This document shows positions 21,283 to 28,066 of a stretch of DNA of 64,000 nucleotides, piece by piece. The notes under the pieces are model-generated. The model saw nothing but the letters and a program-made list of their open reading frames with translations, made no database searches and had not been told where the DNA came from. The translations under genes were made by a program, and so were the position numbers. The stretch covers positions 1 to 64,000 of the forward strand of contig NZ_KI421511.1 of NCBI RefSeq assembly GCF_000473265.1, given 5' to 3'. Positions within the stretch are counted from its first letter, which is position 1. Each line of letters starts with the position of its first letter. This DNA is from Amycolatopsis thermoflava N1165. GTDB taxonomy: Bacteria > Actinomycetota > Actinomycetes > Mycobacteriales > Pseudonocardiaceae.

Positions 21283-22116
21283 GTGCGAATCGGTGTGAAT
21301 GTTCCGAACTTCGGCCCCGGCACGGATCCGGGGGTGCTGCGCGACTGGGGCCGGACGGTCGAAGGGCTGGGTTACGACCTGCTGATGGTGTCCGACCACG
21401 TGGCGCTCACGGCGGACGTGGCCGAGCAGTACCCGGCGCCGTTCTACGAGCCGTTCACGACGTTGTCCTGGCTGGCCGGCGTGACCGAGCGGATCCGGCT
21501 CGGCACCACGGTGCTCGTCCTGCCCTACCGGCACCCGTTGCTGACCGCGCGCATGGCCGCGAACCTGAACGCCCTCAGCGGTGGGCGGCTGGTGCTCGGC
21601 GTCGGGGTCGGCTGGGCGCGCCAGGAGTTCGCGGCCCTGGGCGTGCCGTTCGAGCGGCGCGGCGCGCTGACCGACGAGTACCTCGACGCGCTGCGCGAGG
21701 CGTGGGCCGATCCCGGTTACCGCACCGCGCAGATCCCGTTGTGGATCGGCGGGAACAGCCCGGCGGCCATGCGGCGGGCGGTGCGGCGGGGCGAGCCCTG
21801 GCACCCGCTGCGGTTCGCGCCCGAGTGGTTCCGGTCGGCGACCGGGACGCTCAAGGCCTTGGCCGACGAGGCGGGACAGCCGGTGCCCCCGTTGGTGCCG
21901 CGGATCGTGCTGCGCCTGACCAGCCGGCCGGTCACCGGGGAGCGGCTGGCCGGTGAGGGCACCATCGAGCAGATCGTGGCCGACATCGAAGAGTTGCGGG
22001 TGCTGGGCGCGGAGACCGTGGTGCTCGACCCGTTCAGTGGTGACCCGGCGGAGACGTTGCGGCCTCAGGCCGCCTGGCAGGCGCTGGCGACCGTCCGCGC
22101 CCATCTGGAGGGCTGA
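21283..22116 (+). CDS. LLM-class F420/flavin-dependent oxidoreductase
   Basis: This 277-residue protein is a luciferase-like monooxygenase-family TIM barrel. Diagnostic segments are GYDLLMVSDHVAL, LGTTVLVLPYRHPLLTARMAANLNALSGGRLVLGVGVGW and LWIGGNSPAAMRRAV. Actinobacterial members often use coenzyme F420 and reduce or oxidise unknown metabolites. The stop shares one base with the start of the deaminase gene (TGATG), so the two are translationally coupled and probably act in one pathway, perhaps on a heterocyclic substrate (inference). Confidence 0.86.
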   Translation: MRIGVNVPNFGPGTDPGVLRDWGRTVEGLGYDLLMVSDHVALTADVAEQYPAPFYEPFTTLSWLAGVTERIRLGTTVLVLPYRHPLLTARMAANLNALSGGRLVLGVGVGWARQEFAALGVPFERRGALTDEYLDALREAWADPGYRTAQIPLWIGGNSPAAMRRAVRRGEPWHPLRFAPEWFRSATGTLKALADEAGQPVPPLVPRIVLRLTSRPVTGERLAGEGTIEQIVADIEELRVLGAETVVLDPFSGDPAETLRPQAAWQALATVRAHLEG

Positions 22117-22547
22117 TGTCCGACGACGACAAGTACCTGCGGCGCGCGATCGAGCTGGCCGGCGAGGCCCGCGCGTCGGGCAACCCGCCGTTCGGCTCGC
22201 TGCTGGTCGGTCCCGACGGGCGGATCCTCGCCGAGGACCGCAACACGACGATCACCGACCGGGACATCTCCGCCCACCCCGAGCAGAAACTCGCTCGCTG
22301 GGCGGCGCGCGAGCTGGACCCGGAGACGGCGGCGTGCACCACGATGTACACCAGCTGCCAGCCGTGCGGGATGTGCACGGGCGCGCTGGCGCGGTCCGGG
22401 CTGGGACGCGTGGTGTTCGCGTTGTCCGGTGAGCAGCTGGAGAGCCTGAAGGAGCCGACCGCGCCCGTCGTGGCGAAGCCGGTGCCGCAGGAGGGCCCGT
22501 TCCTGTTCGAGGAGGCGCGCGTACCGGTGGAGGGCTACTACCGCTGA
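22116..22547 (+). CDS. nucleoside/CMP-dCMP deaminase-family protein
   Basis: The 143-residue zinc deaminase shows the pattern of the cytidine deaminase superfamily: SGNPPFGSLLV, then HPEQKL in place of the common HAE motif (the glutamate is retained), and TSCQPCGMC with the two zinc cysteines. Members hydrolyse amino groups on purines, pyrimidines or related rings. It overlaps the LLM oxidoreductase gene by one base. The last 10 bases overlap the convergent membrane-protein gene. Confidence 0.86.
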   Translation: MSDDDKYLRRAIELAGEARASGNPPFGSLLVGPDGRILAEDRNTTITDRDISAHPEQKLARWAARELDPETAACTTMYTSCQPCGMCTGALARSGLGRVVFALSGEQLESLKEPTAPVVAKPVPQEGPFLFEEARVPVEGYYR

Positions 22548-23650
22548 GTGAGCTCGGCGCCCGGCCGGAAGGACCGCACCAGGGCGGAGTCCTGGTGCTC
22601 GGCGAGGGTGAGCGCGAACCCGACCTCGTCGGCCCACTCCTCGCCCGAGCAGTCATCGCCCGGCGGCGTCGCCGTGCGCGGGCGCGTGCCGCGTAGTTTC
22701 GCCGCCTCCGCCAGCGGGAGCCAGCAGGCCGTGGCGAGGGCTTCGGAGCCGGCGTGGGCGCGGGCCGCGGCGAGCGTGGCCGGGGCGACGTAGTCCCGCA
22801 GGACCAGGACCGCGTCGCGGATCTCGATGACCCGGCGGTACAGCCGCAGGTCGCTGGCCCAGCGGCCGTTCTCCGGCAGGTGGACCTGCGGCACGGCCGC
22901 GACCAGCCGGCGCCACAACGGCTCCAGCCTGCGCAGGGTGCGGTGGTCGTTCACGGACCGGTGCAGCCGCAGCAGTTGCGGCAGGGCCGTGCCGAGCGCC
23001 ATCACCCACGCGGTGATGGCGACGTTGAGCGGGAACGTCGCCGCCACCCACGGTGAGCGCGTGACCAGGTAGGCGGGCGCGACCAGGCCCCAGAACACGG
23101 TCGAGGACGCGAAGCCGGTGGTGAGCACGTACAGGCCGGCGCGCAGGGGGCGGGTCGTGGCGCGGCGGCCGTAGCGGGCGCACACGACCGCGGCGGGGCC
23201 GGTGCCCAGCACGTGCGCGAGGCAGAGCAGCAGCCAGAACAGGTCGAACCACGGTTTGTCGGCCGGGGTGACGCAGGCGGCCGTGGCGCCGGTGTTGAGC
23301 AGCAGCAGGGCGGCGCTCACCAGGGCGGCCGAGCCGTAGACCAGCAGCGGACGGCGGCGGGAGGCGGCGGCGAGGACGAAGTCGAGGATGAGCGCGGAGC
23401 TGACCACGCGCCAGACGTTGACCACGATGCCGCACGTGTCGCCGAGCCGGAGCGCGCGGTTGACCAGGCCGGTCACCGGGTCGAGGGCGACCGTGATCGA
23501 GGTGGCGAGGCTGGCGATCGCGATGAGCATGCGCCGCCGCGGAGGCGAGCGCCGGGCGGCCGGGGCGCGGATCAGCAGCGCGGCCCAGAGGAGGAGGGTG
23601 CCCGCGACGAGGAGGTCGGTGCCGGCGCCCTGCACGAGTGCCGGGTTCAC
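22538..23650 (-). CDS. MAB_1171c-family integral membrane protein
   Basis: The 370-residue protein has about seven hydrophobic segments in its first 250 residues, then a soluble, helix-rich C-terminal part with RRLEPLWRRLVAAVPQVHL, a feature of the MAB_1171c group known from mycobacteria and streptomycetes. Members are usually encoded beside XRE and ImmA/IrrE genes, as here. The function is unknown; 'putative transporter' labels are not supported by visible motifs. I use the GTG at 23650, because the longer frame to 23767 is Arg/Ala-rich and lacks membrane-protein character. Confidence 0.75.
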   Translation of the reverse strand: MNPALVQGAGTDLLVAGTLLLWAALLIRAPAARRSPPRRRMLIAIASLATSITVALDPVTGLVNRALRLGDTCGIVVNVWRVVSSALILDFVLAAASRRRPLLVYGSAALVSAALLLLNTGATAACVTPADKPWFDLFWLLLCLAHVLGTGPAAVVCARYGRRATTRPLRAGLYVLTTGFASSTVFWGLVAPAYLVTRSPWVAATFPLNVAITAWVMALGTALPQLLRLHRSVNDHRTLRRLEPLWRRLVAAVPQVHLPENGRWASDLRLYRRVIEIRDAVLVLRDYVAPATLAAARAHAGSEALATACWLPLAEAAKLRGTRPRTATPPGDDCSGEEWADEVGFALTLAEHQDSALVRSFRPGAELTQR

Positions 23651-23801
23651 GGGCTGCCTCCCCGGCGCGGGGCTGAGGGTCGCGGGCAGCTCCGTGCAGT
23701 GCCGGCCCGTGAGGCGGGGCCGACGTGCTGCTGCCGCGTGCTGCGCCCGTGACTTCGCACAGCACACCCTCGGTCCGGGAGAACCGCCGCCCGGGTCACT
23801 C

Positions 23802-24302
23802 TCACGTCCCGCGCAGGCCGAGCGCCGTTTCGAACTCGCGGAGCGCTCCGGTCGTCGTCCAGGTCGCGCGGGCCTGCGCGGCGGTCCGGATGAGGCTCGC
23901 GACCAGTTCCGCCTCCTGTTCCTCCTCCGTGGTGTACCCGGTGCGGGTCAGCAGCCGCTCGATCAGCTCCGGCGACAGGTCCGGCAGCACCCGCGCCAAC
24001 GGGTGCGCCCCGCCACCGGCGCCGGTGTGGTCGCACAGCAGGTGGCCGATCTCGTGCAGCACGATGTGCTCGCGGTGCACCCGGCTCGTCTTCTCCTCGA
24101 CGTAGATCACGTCCGCCGTCGCCAGCCGGATCCACGCCCCGCACGCGGACCCGCCGGACCCGGGCGGCAGCGTGCGCACGTGGATCGGGCGGCCGCGCCG
24201 CGCCGCGAGGGCGTCCACCAGCGCGGGCACCGAGAACGGCTGGGGCAGCGGCAGGCCGGCCACCAGGGCCTGGCACCGCCGCAGGTCGCGTCGCGTCACC
24301 AT
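23802..24302 (-). CDS. ImmA/IrrE family metallo-endopeptidase
   Basis: The 166-residue protein has the zinc protease motif HEIGH at 83-87 within VLHEIGHLLCDH, and a downstream EEEQEAELVAS that could supply the third ligand. ImmA-type proteases cut or release their partner XRE repressor to induce a target operon; IrrE does this in radiation response. It is encoded just downstream of an XRE gene and upstream of a membrane protein, a recurring actinobacterial trio. It probably acts on the XRE protein (inference). Confidence 0.85.
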   Translation of the reverse strand: MVTRRDLRRCQALVAGLPLPQPFSVPALVDALAARRGRPIHVRTLPPGSGGSACGAWIRLATADVIYVEEKTSRVHREHIVLHEIGHLLCDHTGAGGGAHPLARVLPDLSPELIERLLTRTGYTTEEEQEAELVASLIRTAAQARATWTTTGALREFETALGLRGT

Positions 24303-24361
24303 CGCGCTGCCGTCACCTCCGCTCGCGCGTCGTCCGCGAGCCGGCGCGGCGCCTGCCTGGT

Positions 24362-24808
24362 CTACGCGCCCGGCTCGTCCTCCGGCTGCTCGGCAGGCGG
24401 CCCGAGCCGCTCGATCTTGCGGGCCTCGGTGACCATGGCCAGCAGCGCGTCCAGGGTATCGTCGGACAGCCCGTCCGCGCGCAAGGCGATGGACCGGACC
24501 TTCTGGTTGCGCAGCGCCTGAGCCAGCTCGAGCTGGGCGTCGACGCGGGAGGTCACCGCGTCGTCCAGGAAGTACTCCGCGGGCACGCCGAAGAACGCGG
24601 CGAGCGTGCCCAGCGTTTCCTGCGTCAGGTTGCGCTTGCGGCCGCTGGCCAGTTCCCACAGGTACGTGCTCGACAGCGTCGCCCCCGTGCGCTCGCGGAT
24701 CTGCGCCGCGAGCTTCGCGTACCCGGGCCTGCCCTCGGGGTAGAGGGTGGTGATCAGGTGCGTGATCTTGGCGGCGAGTGAGCCACCCTCCTGCCCGCCC
24801 TGGTCCAT
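24362..24808 (-). CDS. XRE-family helix-turn-helix regulator
   Basis: The 148-residue protein has an N-terminal HTH (GYAKLAAQIRERTGATLSSTYLWELASGRKRNLTQETLGTLAAFFGVP region) and a C-terminal half rich in Glu/Leu that could form a helical partner surface. It is typical of XRE proteins paired with ImmA/IrrE proteases. Two copies of an 18-bp palindrome flank its promoter region, one between promoter and start codon, so it probably represses itself and is relieved by ImmA. Confidence 0.86.
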   Translation of the reverse strand: MDQGGQEGGSLAAKITHLITTLYPEGRPGYAKLAAQIRERTGATLSSTYLWELASGRKRNLTQETLGTLAAFFGVPAEYFLDDAVTSRVDAQLELAQALRNQKVRSIALRADGLSDDTLDALLAMVTEARKIERLGPPAEQPEDEPGA

Positions 24809-24832
24809 GGGGTTCCTCGTGCTCGAAGGGAG

Positions 24833-24850
24833 CGTCCGCTGAGGCGGACG
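24833..24850. promoter_or_regulatory. operator copy 1 (imperfect 18-bp palindrome)
   Basis: CGTCCGCTGAGGCGGACG has arms CGTCCGC (24833-24839) and GCGGACG (24844-24850). It matches operator copy 2 at 15 of 18 positions, with changes mostly in compensating pairs. It lies in the presumed leader of the XRE transcript, 25 bp before the ATG at 24808. Confidence 0.6.
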
Positions 24851-24867
24851 GCCGGTGGTCGGCAGCC

Positions 24868-24920
24868 ATTCTGAGTCAGCTGTGAGCCGTTGACAAACCG
24901 AGGTGTCCAGCCCCTATTCT
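24868..24920. promoter_or_regulatory. overlapping divergent promoters sharing one -35 core
   Basis: TTGACAA at 24890-24896 reads as TTGTCAA on the other strand, so both directions have a -35-like hexamer at the same place. Rightward, TATTCT at 24915-24920 is a -10 candidate with a long 19-bp spacer. Leftward, CAGAAT at 24873-24868 follows a 17-bp spacer. Each predicted start point is followed by one operator copy. The assignment is by eye. Confidence 0.45.
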
Positions 24921-24929
24921 GGCCCACGT

Positions 24930-24947
24930 CATCCGCTGAAGCGGATG
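24930..24947. promoter_or_regulatory. operator copy 2 (perfect 18-bp palindrome)
   Basis: CATCCGCTGAAGCGGATG has perfect 8-bp arms (24930-24937 and 24940-24947) around GA. It starts a few bases after the predicted rightward transcription start and just before a terminator. It is 97 bp from operator copy 1. Confidence 0.6.
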
Positions 24948-24950
24948 TGC

Positions 24951-24984
24951 GGCCGGCGGGGCCTGGGGGCTCGCCGGCCTTTTT
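24951..24984 (+). terminator. Rho-independent terminator with T-run
   Basis: GGCCGGCG (24951-24958) pairs with CGCCGGCC (24972-24979), followed by five T residues at 24980-24984. It would end the rightward transcript from the divergent promoter after only about 60 nt, before any gene. The remaining gap to 25171 holds only the next promoter. Confidence 0.65.
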
Positions 24985-25097
24985 CGTGTCCGGATCCGTT
25001 CACCCTGCACGCCCCGCCCGGAAGCGGTTATGATGGTGGAGGCGTCGTTCTCCCAGTGACCCCCAGGCTGGTCGAGGACGACGCCCCTTTTTGCGGC

Positions 25098-25126
25098 TTG
25101 ACTTTTGTTCACGGTATGCATTAGAT
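25098..25126 (+). promoter_or_regulatory. sigma70-type promoter of the Gfo/Idh gene
   Basis: TTGACT at 25098-25103 and TTAGAT at 25121-25126 are separated by 17 bp, a good consensus match in such GC-rich DNA. Transcription would start about 40 bp before the ATG at 25172. The surrounding bases are unusually AT-rich for the window. Confidence 0.55.
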
Positions 25127-25171
25127 GATTTCAGTAGTGCAGAAGACCTGTCGACAGGGGGAGAAGTGAGC

Positions 25172-26242
25172 ATGCCGCTGCGGGCCGGGATCATCGGTGC
25201 CGGGTTCATCGGAGCCGTGCACGCCCGTGCGGTGCACACGCTGGGGCAGGACCTGGCCGCCGTGGCGGCGTCCACGCCCGCCCGCTCCCGGGAAGCAGCG
25301 GCAGAGCTGGGCGGGCGAGCCGCCGTCGACAGCGCCGAGGAACTGGCAGCCGCCCCGGACATCGACGTCGTCCACATCTGCACCCCGAACGCGCTGCACG
25401 CGCCGCTGACCCGCATCGCGCTCGACGCGGGCAAGCACGTCGTGCTGGAGAAGCCGGTCGGCACCAGCAGCGCCGAGGTCGCCGACCTCGTCCGGCGGTG
25501 GCGGGACACCGACCGGGTGGTCGCCGTCCCGTTCGCCTACCGCTTCTACCCGGTGGTGCGCGAGGTGCGGGACCGCGTGCGCGGCGGGCCGGTCCGGCTG
25601 ATCCACGGCGTCTACCTGCAGGACTGGCTTTCCCGGGACAGCGACACGAACTGGCGCGTGCGGTCCGGGCTCGGTGGGCCGTCGCGCGCGTTCGGCGACA
25701 TCGGGGTGCACTGGTGCGACCTGGCGGAGTTCGTCACCGGGCAGCGGATCGCGCGGGTGCACGCGGTGCTGCCCCGGGTCGTGCCGGTGCGGGCGGGCGT
25801 CGAGGTCGACACCGAGGACGCGGCGCTGCTGCAGTTCGAGACCGAGCAGGGCGTGTTCGGGTCGGCGGTGATCAGCCAGATCTCGCCGGGGCGGCGCAAC
25901 CAGCTGCAGTTGCGGATCGACACGCCGGACACCGAGTACGCGTTCGACCAGCAGGAGCCGGAGGTTCTGTGGATGGGCGGGCGCGAGGAGACGCGGGTCC
26001 TGCACCGCGGCGACCCCGCACTCGGCCCGGACGCGACCTCCCGCAACCTCGTCCCGGCCGGCCACCCGCAGGGCTACCTGGACTCCTTCACCGGCTTCAT
26101 CGCCGACGCCTACGCCGCGATGCGCGGCGAAAAGCCCGACGGCCTCCCGACACTGGCCGACGGCGCCCGCGCGACGGCGATCACCGAGGCGGTCCTGGAC
26201 TCCGCCGCCCGCCGCGACTGGGTGGAGGTCACGCCCGGCTGA
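25172..26242 (+). CDS. Gfo/Idh/MocA family oxidoreductase
   Basis: The 356-residue protein has an N-terminal NAD(P) fold with GAGFIG at 9-14, VHICTPNALHA and the conserved lysine in VLEKPVG. The C-terminal half contains the GDIGVHWCDLAEF motif, whose histidine is the usual catalytic residue. Members oxidise sugars, inositols or sugar acids. A GGGGGAGAAG ribosome-binding site supports the ATG at 25172. The ROK-family gene 49 bp downstream on the same strand suggests a sugar catabolic unit. Confidence 0.87.
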   Translation: MPLRAGIIGAGFIGAVHARAVHTLGQDLAAVAASTPARSREAAAELGGRAAVDSAEELAAAPDIDVVHICTPNALHAPLTRIALDAGKHVVLEKPVGTSSAEVADLVRRWRDTDRVVAVPFAYRFYPVVREVRDRVRGGPVRLIHGVYLQDWLSRDSDTNWRVRSGLGGPSRAFGDIGVHWCDLAEFVTGQRIARVHAVLPRVVPVRAGVEVDTEDAALLQFETEQGVFGSAVISQISPGRRNQLQLRIDTPDTEYAFDQQEPEVLWMGGREETRVLHRGDPALGPDATSRNLVPAGHPQGYLDSFTGFIADAYAAMRGEKPDGLPTLADGARATAITEAVLDSAARRDWVEVTPG

Positions 26243-26291
26243 GCGCCGGGCCTGGTACGAATTTCCGGGTAGTGCGAGCGAAGGGACCCCC

Positions 26292-27548
26292 GTGACCGCA
26301 ACCATCCCGTCCGACCAGCTCGACGATCTGGTCCTGGTGCTCGACCTGGTGCGCTCCGGCGCCGCGCGGACCCGGCCGGAGCTGGGCAGGCGGTCGGGCC
26401 TCGGGCGGACCGTCATCAGCCAGCGCGTCGGTCACCTGATGCGCGCCGGGCTGCTGGAGGACGGCGAGCTGGGGCCCTCCAGCGGCGGGCGCGCGCCGCG
26501 GGAGCTGCGGTTCTGCTCCGGCGCCGGGGTGATCCTCACCGCCGAGCTGGGCGCGACCAGCATCAGCGCCGGCCTCACCGACCTCGCCGGGAACCTGCTC
26601 GCGCAACGCACCGAGGCCTCCGACGTCGCCCGCGGTCCGGAACCCGTGCTCGCCCAGGTCGGCGCCCTCTTCGACGACCTGCTGGCCACCCGGCCGGACG
26701 CCCAGGTGTGGGGGGTGGGCATCGGGCTGCCGGGGCCGGTCGAGTTCGCCACCGGGCGACCCAGCGCCCCGCCGATCATGCCGGGCTGGGACGGCTACCC
26801 GGTGCGCGACCACTTCGCCCGGCGGCACAACGCGCCGGTGTGGGTGGACAACGAGGTGAACGCGATGACGCTCGGCGAGTTCCGGGCGGGCGCGGCGGCC
26901 GGGGCGCGCGACTACCTCTACGTCAAGATCGGCACCGGGATCGGCGCCGGGCTCATCTCCGGCGGCCACCTGCACCGCGGCAGCCAGGGATGCGCCGGCG
27001 ACATCGGGCACACGGCGGCGCGCGCCGACACCTCCGTCGTGTGCCGGTGCGGCAACATCGGATGCCTGGAAGCGCTCGCCGGTGGCGCCGCGCTGGCCAG
27101 GGACGGCGAGGCCGCGGCGAAGGACGGCGGCAGCCCCATCCTGGCCGAGCGCCTCGCGGAGAACGGCGTGGTCACCGCGGAGGACGTGGCGTGGGCGGCG
27201 CAGAACGGCGACCGCGCGGCGCTGGAGCTGATCCAGCGCGCGGGACGGCTGATCGGCGACCAGCTGGCGATGCTGGTGAGCTTCTTCAACCCCTCGCTGC
27301 TGCTGATCGGCGGTGGTGTGGCCGGCGCGGGCGACCACCTGCTGGCCACGATCCGCGAGGTGATCTACGGGCGGTCCCTGCCGCTGGCGACGCGGGACCT
27401 GCGGATCGTGCGCTCGTCGCTGGGCGACCAGGCCGGGGTGGTGGGCGCCGCGTTCATGGTGCTGGACGAGCTGTTCACCCGCGACCGCTTGGCGAAGTGG
27501 ATCGACGCGGGCACGCCGGCGGGGCTGCCGGACCTGACGGCCGCCTGA
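26292..27548 (+). CDS. ROK-family transcriptional regulator / sugar kinase homologue
   Basis: The 418-residue protein starts with a winged HTH (LGRRSGLGRTVISQRVGHLMRAGLL), then a ROK ATPase fold: VGIGLPGPV, DNEVNAMTLGE, GTGIGAGLI, the zinc site CRCGNIGCLE and GGGVAGAGD. The GDIGHTAA histidine is also present. With an HTH it is more likely an NagC/XylR-like regulator than a pure kinase. It probably controls the Gfo/Idh gene upstream in response to a sugar. The GTG start follows a GAAGGGA ribosome-binding site. Confidence 0.87.
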   Translation: MTATIPSDQLDDLVLVLDLVRSGAARTRPELGRRSGLGRTVISQRVGHLMRAGLLEDGELGPSSGGRAPRELRFCSGAGVILTAELGATSISAGLTDLAGNLLAQRTEASDVARGPEPVLAQVGALFDDLLATRPDAQVWGVGIGLPGPVEFATGRPSAPPIMPGWDGYPVRDHFARRHNAPVWVDNEVNAMTLGEFRAGAAAGARDYLYVKIGTGIGAGLISGGHLHRGSQGCAGDIGHTAARADTSVVCRCGNIGCLEALAGGAALARDGEAAAKDGGSPILAERLAENGVVTAEDVAWAAQNGDRAALELIQRAGRLIGDQLAMLVSFFNPSLLLIGGGVAGAGDHLLATIREVIYGRSLPLATRDLRIVRSSLGDQAGVVGAAFMVLDELFTRDRLAKWIDAGTPAGLPDLTAA

Positions 27549-27813
27549 CCGTCGCGGTCGTGAGCCCGCCGGAGGCGGCGGCGGGCCGGCGGAGCGGGTC
27601 TGGTGGCGGGCGGTGCTGCGTGAGTGGCGTGCCGGAGGCTGGTGCGCCTGCCGGACCGCGGGGCGGGTTGCGGGTGTGGCAGATGGTGGTCCGCTGGGGC
27701 GGGTGGGCTGCGGCGCGCGGGTGGCTGCGCCGGCCTGGCCGCGCGCGGGGTTGCCAGGCGGCGCTGGTGATCATTCTGCGCGAGCGGCAATGGACCGAGC
27801 GCCCCGCCAACGG
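27549..27813. other. gene-free G-rich spacer with one hairpin
   Basis: This stretch between the ROK gene and the csp terminator holds no gene I can support. GCCCGCCG (27564-27571) and CGGCGGGC (27579-27586) can form an 8-bp stem shortly after the ROK stop and may end that transcript. The rest is G-rich simple sequence without a clear signal. Confidence 0.4.
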
Positions 27814-27849
27814 CAACGGGCCGGTCCCCCGTGGGGAACCGGCCCGTTG
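27814..27849. terminator. strong bidirectional hairpin behind the cold-shock gene
   Basis: CAACGGGCCGGTCCCC (27814-27829) pairs with GGGGAACCGGCCCGTTG (27833-27849) with a single bulged base and a 3-base loop. It lies 16 bp after the csp stop on the minus strand and faces the ROK gene on the plus strand, so it can terminate either. Confidence 0.65.
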
Positions 27850-27865
27850 AACAGTCGCGCGAAGG

Positions 27866-28066
27866 TCAGATGATGCTGACGCGGCTCGCCTGCGGGCCCT
27901 TGGCGCCCTGCGTGATCTCGAAGGTCACCTGCTGGTTCTCTTCAAGGCTGCGGAAGCCGTTGCCGTCGATCTCCGAGTAGTGGACGAAGACGTCCGGTCC
28001 GCTCTCCTGCGCGATGAAGCCGAAGCCCTTTTCGGCGTTGAACCATTTGACGGTGCCCTGTGCCAT
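27866..28066 (-). CDS. cold-shock protein, CspA family
   Basis: This 66-residue single OB-fold protein is a textbook CspA-type RNA chaperone: [17 protein letters not shown] (RNP1) and DVFVHYSEI (RNP2) are intact. It binds single-stranded RNA/DNA and melts RNA structure. An AAGGAG ribosome-binding site precedes the ATG. Only 29 bp separate it from the small upstream gene, so it is probably co-transcribed with the desaturase, which would join RNA and membrane responses to cold. Confidence 0.95.

Follow-up and report, generated by a model that had tools for sequence, protein, structure and literature searches.

Repressor–peptidase pairs of the ImmR/ImmA type are encoded by an XRE gene followed by the gene for a putative HEXXH peptidase, and the 6C RNA of actinobacteria is a small RNA with a C-rich loop. 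The locus analysed here lies in a 64,000-nucleotide stretch of the Amycolatopsis thermoflava N1165 genome, referred to below as the window. It resembles ImmR/ImmA systems in its gene order, XRE then putative peptidase, but its XRE protein is EspR-like, the peptidase falls below the Pfam cut-off and cleavage is putative. Beside it lies a candidate small RNA, R1, which has a C-rich loop in common with 6C RNA but is a single hairpin that matched no Rfam family.

In Mycobacterium tuberculosis, two sites flank the promoter of espR, the gene for EspR (Rv3849), and a loop has been suggested to occlude or trap RNA polymerase, as described in PMC3315491. The regulator of the present locus is homologous to EspR and likewise has two sites flanking its own promoter, but at this locus they are strictly palindromic, keep a nearly fixed distance and also cover a divergent promoter, and the XRE gene is followed by genes for an ImmA-like peptidase and a MAB_1171c-family protein. 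EspR is described there as a nucleoid-associated protein with 165 loci, whereas the exact operator occurs twice in the genome studied here. By analogy, the operator half of our locus is best read as a known kind of autoregulation, of the EspR type, with a stricter geometry. In Bacillus subtilis, RosA, a stand-alone RNA with G-rich regions that is repressed by CcpA (a CcpA site is predicted at −1 to +12), acts as a sponge for RoxS via the C-rich regions of RoxS, according to the account in PMC8216469. The layout that we propose, a repressor-controlled G-rich RNA antagonising a C-rich small RNA, would match that of RosA and RoxS. The likeness is one of layout: the regulator here is EspR-like rather than CcpA, the G-rich RNA would be one short hairpin and the interaction is predicted.

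Our model is as follows. An EspR-family repressor would bind two palindromic operators lying 97 bp apart, one on each side of a shared −35 element, and, probably by bridging them, would repress both its own operon (XRE, ImmA-like peptidase, MAB_1171c) and a divergent RNA of about 58 nt. The working part of this mini-RNA would be a hairpin with a G-run in its loop. This hairpin would most likely engage the C-loop of R1 in loop–loop pairing and so titrate or destabilise R1. Removal of the repressor, perhaps by the ImmA-like peptidase, would allow the mini-RNA to be made and the targets of R1 to be released. We put the scheme as a whole forward tentatively, at somewhat below an even chance; its parts differ in strength and are taken up in turn. 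The operators and their spacing, the EspR homology, the conserved promoter layout and G-loop hairpin, and the R1 family with a promoter signal of its own come directly from the computation, whereas transcription, repression, bridging and the RNA pairing with its effect are inferred.

The XRE operon and its paired operators

The source genome comprises 8,693,468 bases in two contigs. The XRE gene (24362–24808, minus strand) encodes a 148-aa EspR-family protein. A profile built from ten XRE proteins matched M. tuberculosis EspR (PDB) with an E-value of 8.8e-20 over profile positions 3–130 of 143, a span that takes in both the HTH and the C-terminal part, and the protein is thus an EspR homologue over nearly its whole length. 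The Pfam HTH models all scored below their cut-offs on it, and it is 99% identical to a protein from Amycolatopsis tucumanensis. Next in the operon comes the gene for the ImmA/IrrE-like putative peptidase (23802–24302, minus strand), which has a HEIGH motif and scores below the cut-off for the M78 domain (PF06114, E 0.0039, 17.4 bits against a cut-off of 22), and then that for a MAB_1171c-family membrane protein (DUF6545; 22538–23767, minus strand; NF042915 E 1.1e-52, PF20182 E 1.7e-24). A Mycobacterium abscessus MAB_1171c mutant is reported to form about half the biofilm mass, as stated in PMC8707978. It is plausible, judging from the HEIGH motif, that the putative peptidase inactivates the XRE repressor in the ImmA manner.

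Upstream of the XRE gene, the proximal operator CGTCCGCTGAGGCGGACG (24833–24850) and the distal operator CATCCGCTGAAGCGGATG (24930–24947) are 18-bp palindromes lying 97 bp apart from start to start, as the first-pass annotation of this DNA had reported. Its description of them as mirror images adds nothing, because each operator is itself palindromic. Relative to the predicted transcripts, the proximal operator falls within the 5′ leader of the XRE message and the distal one covers about +3 to +20 of the rightward RNA. Searching the window with the 18-mer pattern at up to three mismatches gave 7 matches, four of them being the two operators counted once per strand; shuffles averaged 2.04, and none of 100 reached 7. 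Within the 8.69-Mb genome the exact core TCCGCTGARGCGGA is present at the two operators only. When one mismatch was allowed across the whole genome, 13 matches were obtained compared with 14 for the reversed control, so it is the exact operator pair that is special and not the loose motif, which is not enriched.

We then scored as a pair any two sites that together hold at least 20 of 24 motif letters and lie 40–200 bp apart. Such pairs were found upstream of XRE homologues in 31 of 59 named loci (L044–L102, collected by scanning named genomes with the XRE alignment) and in 17 of 30 whole-genome loci, two sets that have species in common, and these loci, like the window, thereby carry predicted sites on both sides of the XRE promoter. 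Shuffled controls yielded no pairs in the whole-genome set; in the named set 20 shuffles yielded none, except for one pair once. The first-pass annotation had assigned the palindromes to this XRE and had named their absence upstream of orthologous XRE genes as a ground for refutation: they do recur there, and they are absent from a genome of the same genus (G092) in which the operon is lost.

The distance between operators was 96–99 bp in 18 of the 31 named pairs and in 15 of the 17 whole-genome pairs. Other values were 42 and 54 bp (Streptomyces), 55, 86, 90, 94 and 95 bp, the distance of 86 bp being 11 bp, or about one helical turn, shorter; four wider pairs (121–171 bp) may be chance pairings. 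At loci with a clear divergent promoter, the offset from the −10 element to the distal operator ranges over 11–15 nt (7 in L053), while the operators remain 96–99 bp apart except in L047 (86) and L053 (90); in L074 the script paired other sites, at 55 bp. Since the spacing is steady where the −10 offset varies, contact between the two bound sites is favoured, although unproven, and the near-fixed distance suggests bridging or looping by dimers of dimers. We hold the operator and regulator part of the model with considerable confidence. In one Streptomyces locus (L068, Streptomyces sp. RPT161), a perfect palindrome of about 40 bp, some 220–260 bp upstream of the XRE gene, has the distal operator at its centre.

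Divergent promoters and the G-loop hairpin

The TTGACAA lying between the operators had been proposed as a −35 element on both strands, and the promoter layout agrees. Leftwards, the promoter scan returned TTGTCA-17-CAGAAT for the XRE gene (24868–24896, minus strand), which is a consensus match only. Rightwards, TTGACA (24890–24895), a 19-nt spacer and TATTCT (24915–24920) form a promoter-like sequence (24890–24920, plus strand) that was recognised by reading, the scan taking spacers of 16–18 nt only and hence not listing it. With a script we found TTGACA, 19 nt and TANNNT followed by the distal operator in 17 of 25 loci, which were picked for inspection and include several near relatives of each other; two of the 17 are from Streptomyces (L065, L068). 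Three of the remaining loci have weaker versions and five have none. Those five, and a spacer that exceeds the consensus, are what one would expect if the operators were DNA sites only and the rightward promoter were weak or dead, producing no mini-RNA. We regard this as very improbable given the perfect TTGACA, the identical spacer with TANNNT in the 17 loci, both Streptomyces among them, and the strand-biased hairpin downstream.

From this promoter and a downstream T-run we predict a mini-RNA of about 58 nt (24927–24984, plus strand) made up of an operator hairpin and a G-loop hairpin, with a computed fold of −38.5 kcal/mol (z −2.64). The hairpin and five Ts noted earlier after the right-hand palindrome are real: the G-loop hairpin (24951–24984 with its tail, plus strand) occupies 24951–24979, carries the loop GGGCCTGGGGGCT, part of which the predicted fold closes with two C–G pairs, and is followed by the five Ts at 24980–24984. 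A terminator scan reports none here, as loops longer than 8 nt fall outside its settings. The first-pass annotation had the XRE protein controlling both its own operon and a tiny rightward RNA containing the operator palindrome. The geometry of the pair would permit control of both, but conservation lies less in the transcribed palindrome than in the hairpin that follows. The predicted mini-transcript, which had been called unusual, is better supported than the author of that annotation knew, but for a different reason, namely the conserved G-loop and its C-loop neighbour. We consider it likely that the predicted rightward RNA is real.

We defined a G-loop hairpin as a stem of at least six perfect pairs with GGGGG in a loop of 5–18 nt, and looked for it in up to 450 bp upstream of each XRE gene in 90 loci of the family Pseudonocardiaceae (30 whole-genome loci and 60 stretches from a longer list). 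Of these loci, 34 have it on the divergent strand and 2 on the opposite one, counts that do not represent independent events as the species are related; 56 loci have no hairpin of this definition. The stem differs between lineages while the loop retains its G-run on the divergent strand, so that the hairpin is conserved as a class. Fifteen Markov shuffles gave 1–7 hairpins on the divergent and 1–5 on the other strand, against 36 and 2 observed. Among 15 named family loci the hairpin was found in 8 in the divergent orientation and in none in the other. Outside the family, it was found in one of 44 loci in either orientation, these loci being assigned by record title and one being an unclassified MAG. 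As background, 246 kb of sequence from the window and from family loci contained nine hairpins, three of them in the window, that have stems of at least 8 and are not the distal-operator neighbour. Another hairpin in the window, at 27814, has a 12-bp stem and the loop CCCCCGTGGGGA and lies downstream of a ROK gene. One locus (L187) has two tandem G-loop hairpins on the divergent strand, at about −167 and −198 from the XRE gene, and three loci with more distant EspR-like genes (L040, L041, L043) have paired sites that belong to a different type (TTCACCTCAGTTGA, for example) but nevertheless carry a G-loop hairpin on the divergent strand.

A simpler account would make the hairpin only a terminator or insulator of divergent transcription, with the short RNA a by-product and only the two-operator autoregulation of the EspR-like operon of consequence. 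In the window's genus the hairpin is indeed followed by a T-rich stretch. Moreover, when we tested eight loci not closely related to the window, the neighbouring gene on the divergent side pointed towards the mini-RNA in seven, an arrangement in which a terminator would be useful. By reading frames and Pfam, the facing genes (L046, L048, L050, L051, L052, L053 and L055) encode a response regulator, a subtilase, an APH-family protein, an amino-acid permease, an alpha/beta hydrolase, a transglycosylase and a methyltransferase; the exception, L057, has a codirectional gene for a beta-helix protein. However, a T-rich tail (at least four Ts in the 8 nt after the stem) accompanies only 7 of the 34 G-loop hairpins, which are thus not uniform U-tailed terminators, and a terminator needs no G-run on one strand of its loop, as seen in 34 against 2 of the 90 loci. 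We therefore take the terminator account to be possible but rather unlikely. The same seven facing genes led us to reject the hairpin as a leader of the downstream gene in general.

The neighbouring C-loop RNA family

Downstream of the predicted mini-RNA, and missed in the first-pass annotation, is the candidate small RNA R1 (25041–25095, plus strand), predicted to be about 50 nt long, with the loop GTGACCCCCAGGCTGG and a T-run after the hairpin (fold z −3.87; R1 model E 2.8e-16). It is preceded by a −10-like TATGAT (25029–25034, plus strand). A covariance model built from ten copies gave two strong matches in the source genome, at 25041–25095 and at C1:7140924–7140978, the next match having an E-value of 0.05. 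R1 was found in 131 of 150 genomes of the family and in 42 of 46 genera, the source genome included, whereas in a sample of the class it was found in 2 of 197, namely the source genome and one weak match (E 3.6e-4). In all 31 copies read, TANNNT stands 5–15 nt before the start, and the T-rich tail and GACCCCCAGG are kept; these copies are mostly top matches, so that their constancy is partly selected. The copy in G119 reads AACCCCCAGG in place of GACCCCCAGG.

Covariation among the ten sequences gave 94.6% of cells paired, which none of 500 shuffles reached. Three pairs are changed on both sides, a number reached by 65 of 500 shuffles, and the covariation score of 0.176 was reached by 3 of 500, while sliding the alignment by +3 gives 0.179. 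An Rfam search of window positions 22000–28000 at E-values up to 5 returned three weak matches, none of them on R1 or the mini-RNA, and a search of six loci at E-values up to 0.1 returned none. Neither RNA was found in the freely accessible literature that was searched.

Among the matches listed, at least 10 genomes of four genera have R1 no more than 350 bp away from an XRE homologue (by genus: G000, G064, G113, G130 and G146; G012 and G052; G010; G100 and G119). In G100 and G119 the XRE is distant (35 and 37% identity) and R1 stands upstream of it, on the XRE strand. These two genomes lend some colour to the notion that the hairpin at our locus functions when read from the XRE strand, as an R1-like C-loop RNA located upstream of XRE, all the more as the loop on that strand, AGCCCCCAGG, is much like that of R1. 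Nevertheless, an R1-type −10 element or T-rich tail accompanies none of the 34 hairpins read in that direction, whereas each is present in all 31 R1 copies, and we reject this reading as scarcely credible. Also rejected was R1 as a leader or attenuator of a Gfo/Idh/MocA gene: in Actinokineospora (L048, L049), A. antarctica (L050) and Longimycelium (L051) R1 stands beside XRE and tblastn found no Gfo relative, and other copies situated elsewhere likewise argue against such a role.

The second R1 of the source genome (L104; G000:C1:7140924–7140978, minus strand) lies between alanine dehydrogenase and ABC-transporter genes. A relative of alanine dehydrogenase was found near an R1 model match in 10 of 38 loci searched, in either relative orientation. 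One genome, G006 (L142–L145), has 14 R1 model matches compared with one to six in the other genomes listed.

Complementarity and co-occurrence of the G-loop and R1

The mini-RNA loop GGGCCTGGGGGCT contains GCCUGGGGG, which is complementary over 9 nt to CCCCCAGGC of R1. The duplex between the window's two loops is computed at −23.5 kcal/mol, a value reached by about 2% of flank-shuffled loops. Across the family, 29 distinct loops were each compared with their own shuffles: only 2 score 5% or less, several score 0.9–1.0, and examples such as GCCAGGGGG and GGGGTAGAGGGGGCCGT are a poor match to R1. In a test of the letters flanking the G-run, U precedes the run in 20 of 33 loops against 40 of 117 in the background (p 0.009) and stands on both sides in 9 of 33 against 10 of 117 (p 0.008), while CU at the G-run was not enriched (p 0.25). 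With the opposite strand of R1 in the background, the two U tests give p 0.03 and 0.06. Complementarity beyond the G-run is modest across the family.

That the flanking letters fit R1 only in part, while the G-run itself is conserved, could mean that the G-loop RNA is functional with a partner other than R1, such as another C-rich RNA, an anti-Shine–Dalgarno region or an RNA-binding protein. Yet the G-loop and R1 have the same phylogenetic range in our samples, and R1 adjoins the locus in several genera, and we think a different partner improbable. Consistent with pairing between the G-loop and R1, none of the 8 XRE loci in R1-negative family genomes has a G-loop hairpin, compared with 34 of 88 that do in R1-positive genomes, though the XREs of the R1-negative loci are distant relatives (31–46% identity). 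A whole-genome search for the antisense of the R1 loop at up to two mismatches gave 28 matches, of which four belong to one repeat and only the two R1 genes are exact; the reversed control gave 9.

The same-genus genome G092 separates the two elements. It has no XRE match, and the interval from the deaminase gene to R1 lacks both operon and operators, with no operator site above 9 of 12 letters at the locus (L116). A segment that aligns with the G-loop hairpin persists there without the G-run, while R1 is nearly unchanged. The deletion thus indicates that operators and G-loop go with the XRE operon, and that R1 is separable from it and kept. Around G092:C1 position 4730119, a stretch of about 200 bp with the decayed G-loop hairpin occurs twice.

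Taken more generally, the model would describe a two-RNA module of the Pseudonocardiaceae: a family of C-loop small RNAs of about 50 nt in most genomes, together with G-loop antagonists, each under an EspR-family repressor that bridges two operators and also controls an ImmA-like peptidase and membrane-protein operon. We offer this generalisation as a possibility about which we remain doubtful. The analysis also yields a family of small RNAs that Rfam does not list, together with a candidate antagonist, in a group of actinomycetes for which we found little literature on regulatory RNAs. If the module is real, a repressor–peptidase switch would be wired to post-transcriptional control, and EspR-like regulators would be connected to control at the RNA level.
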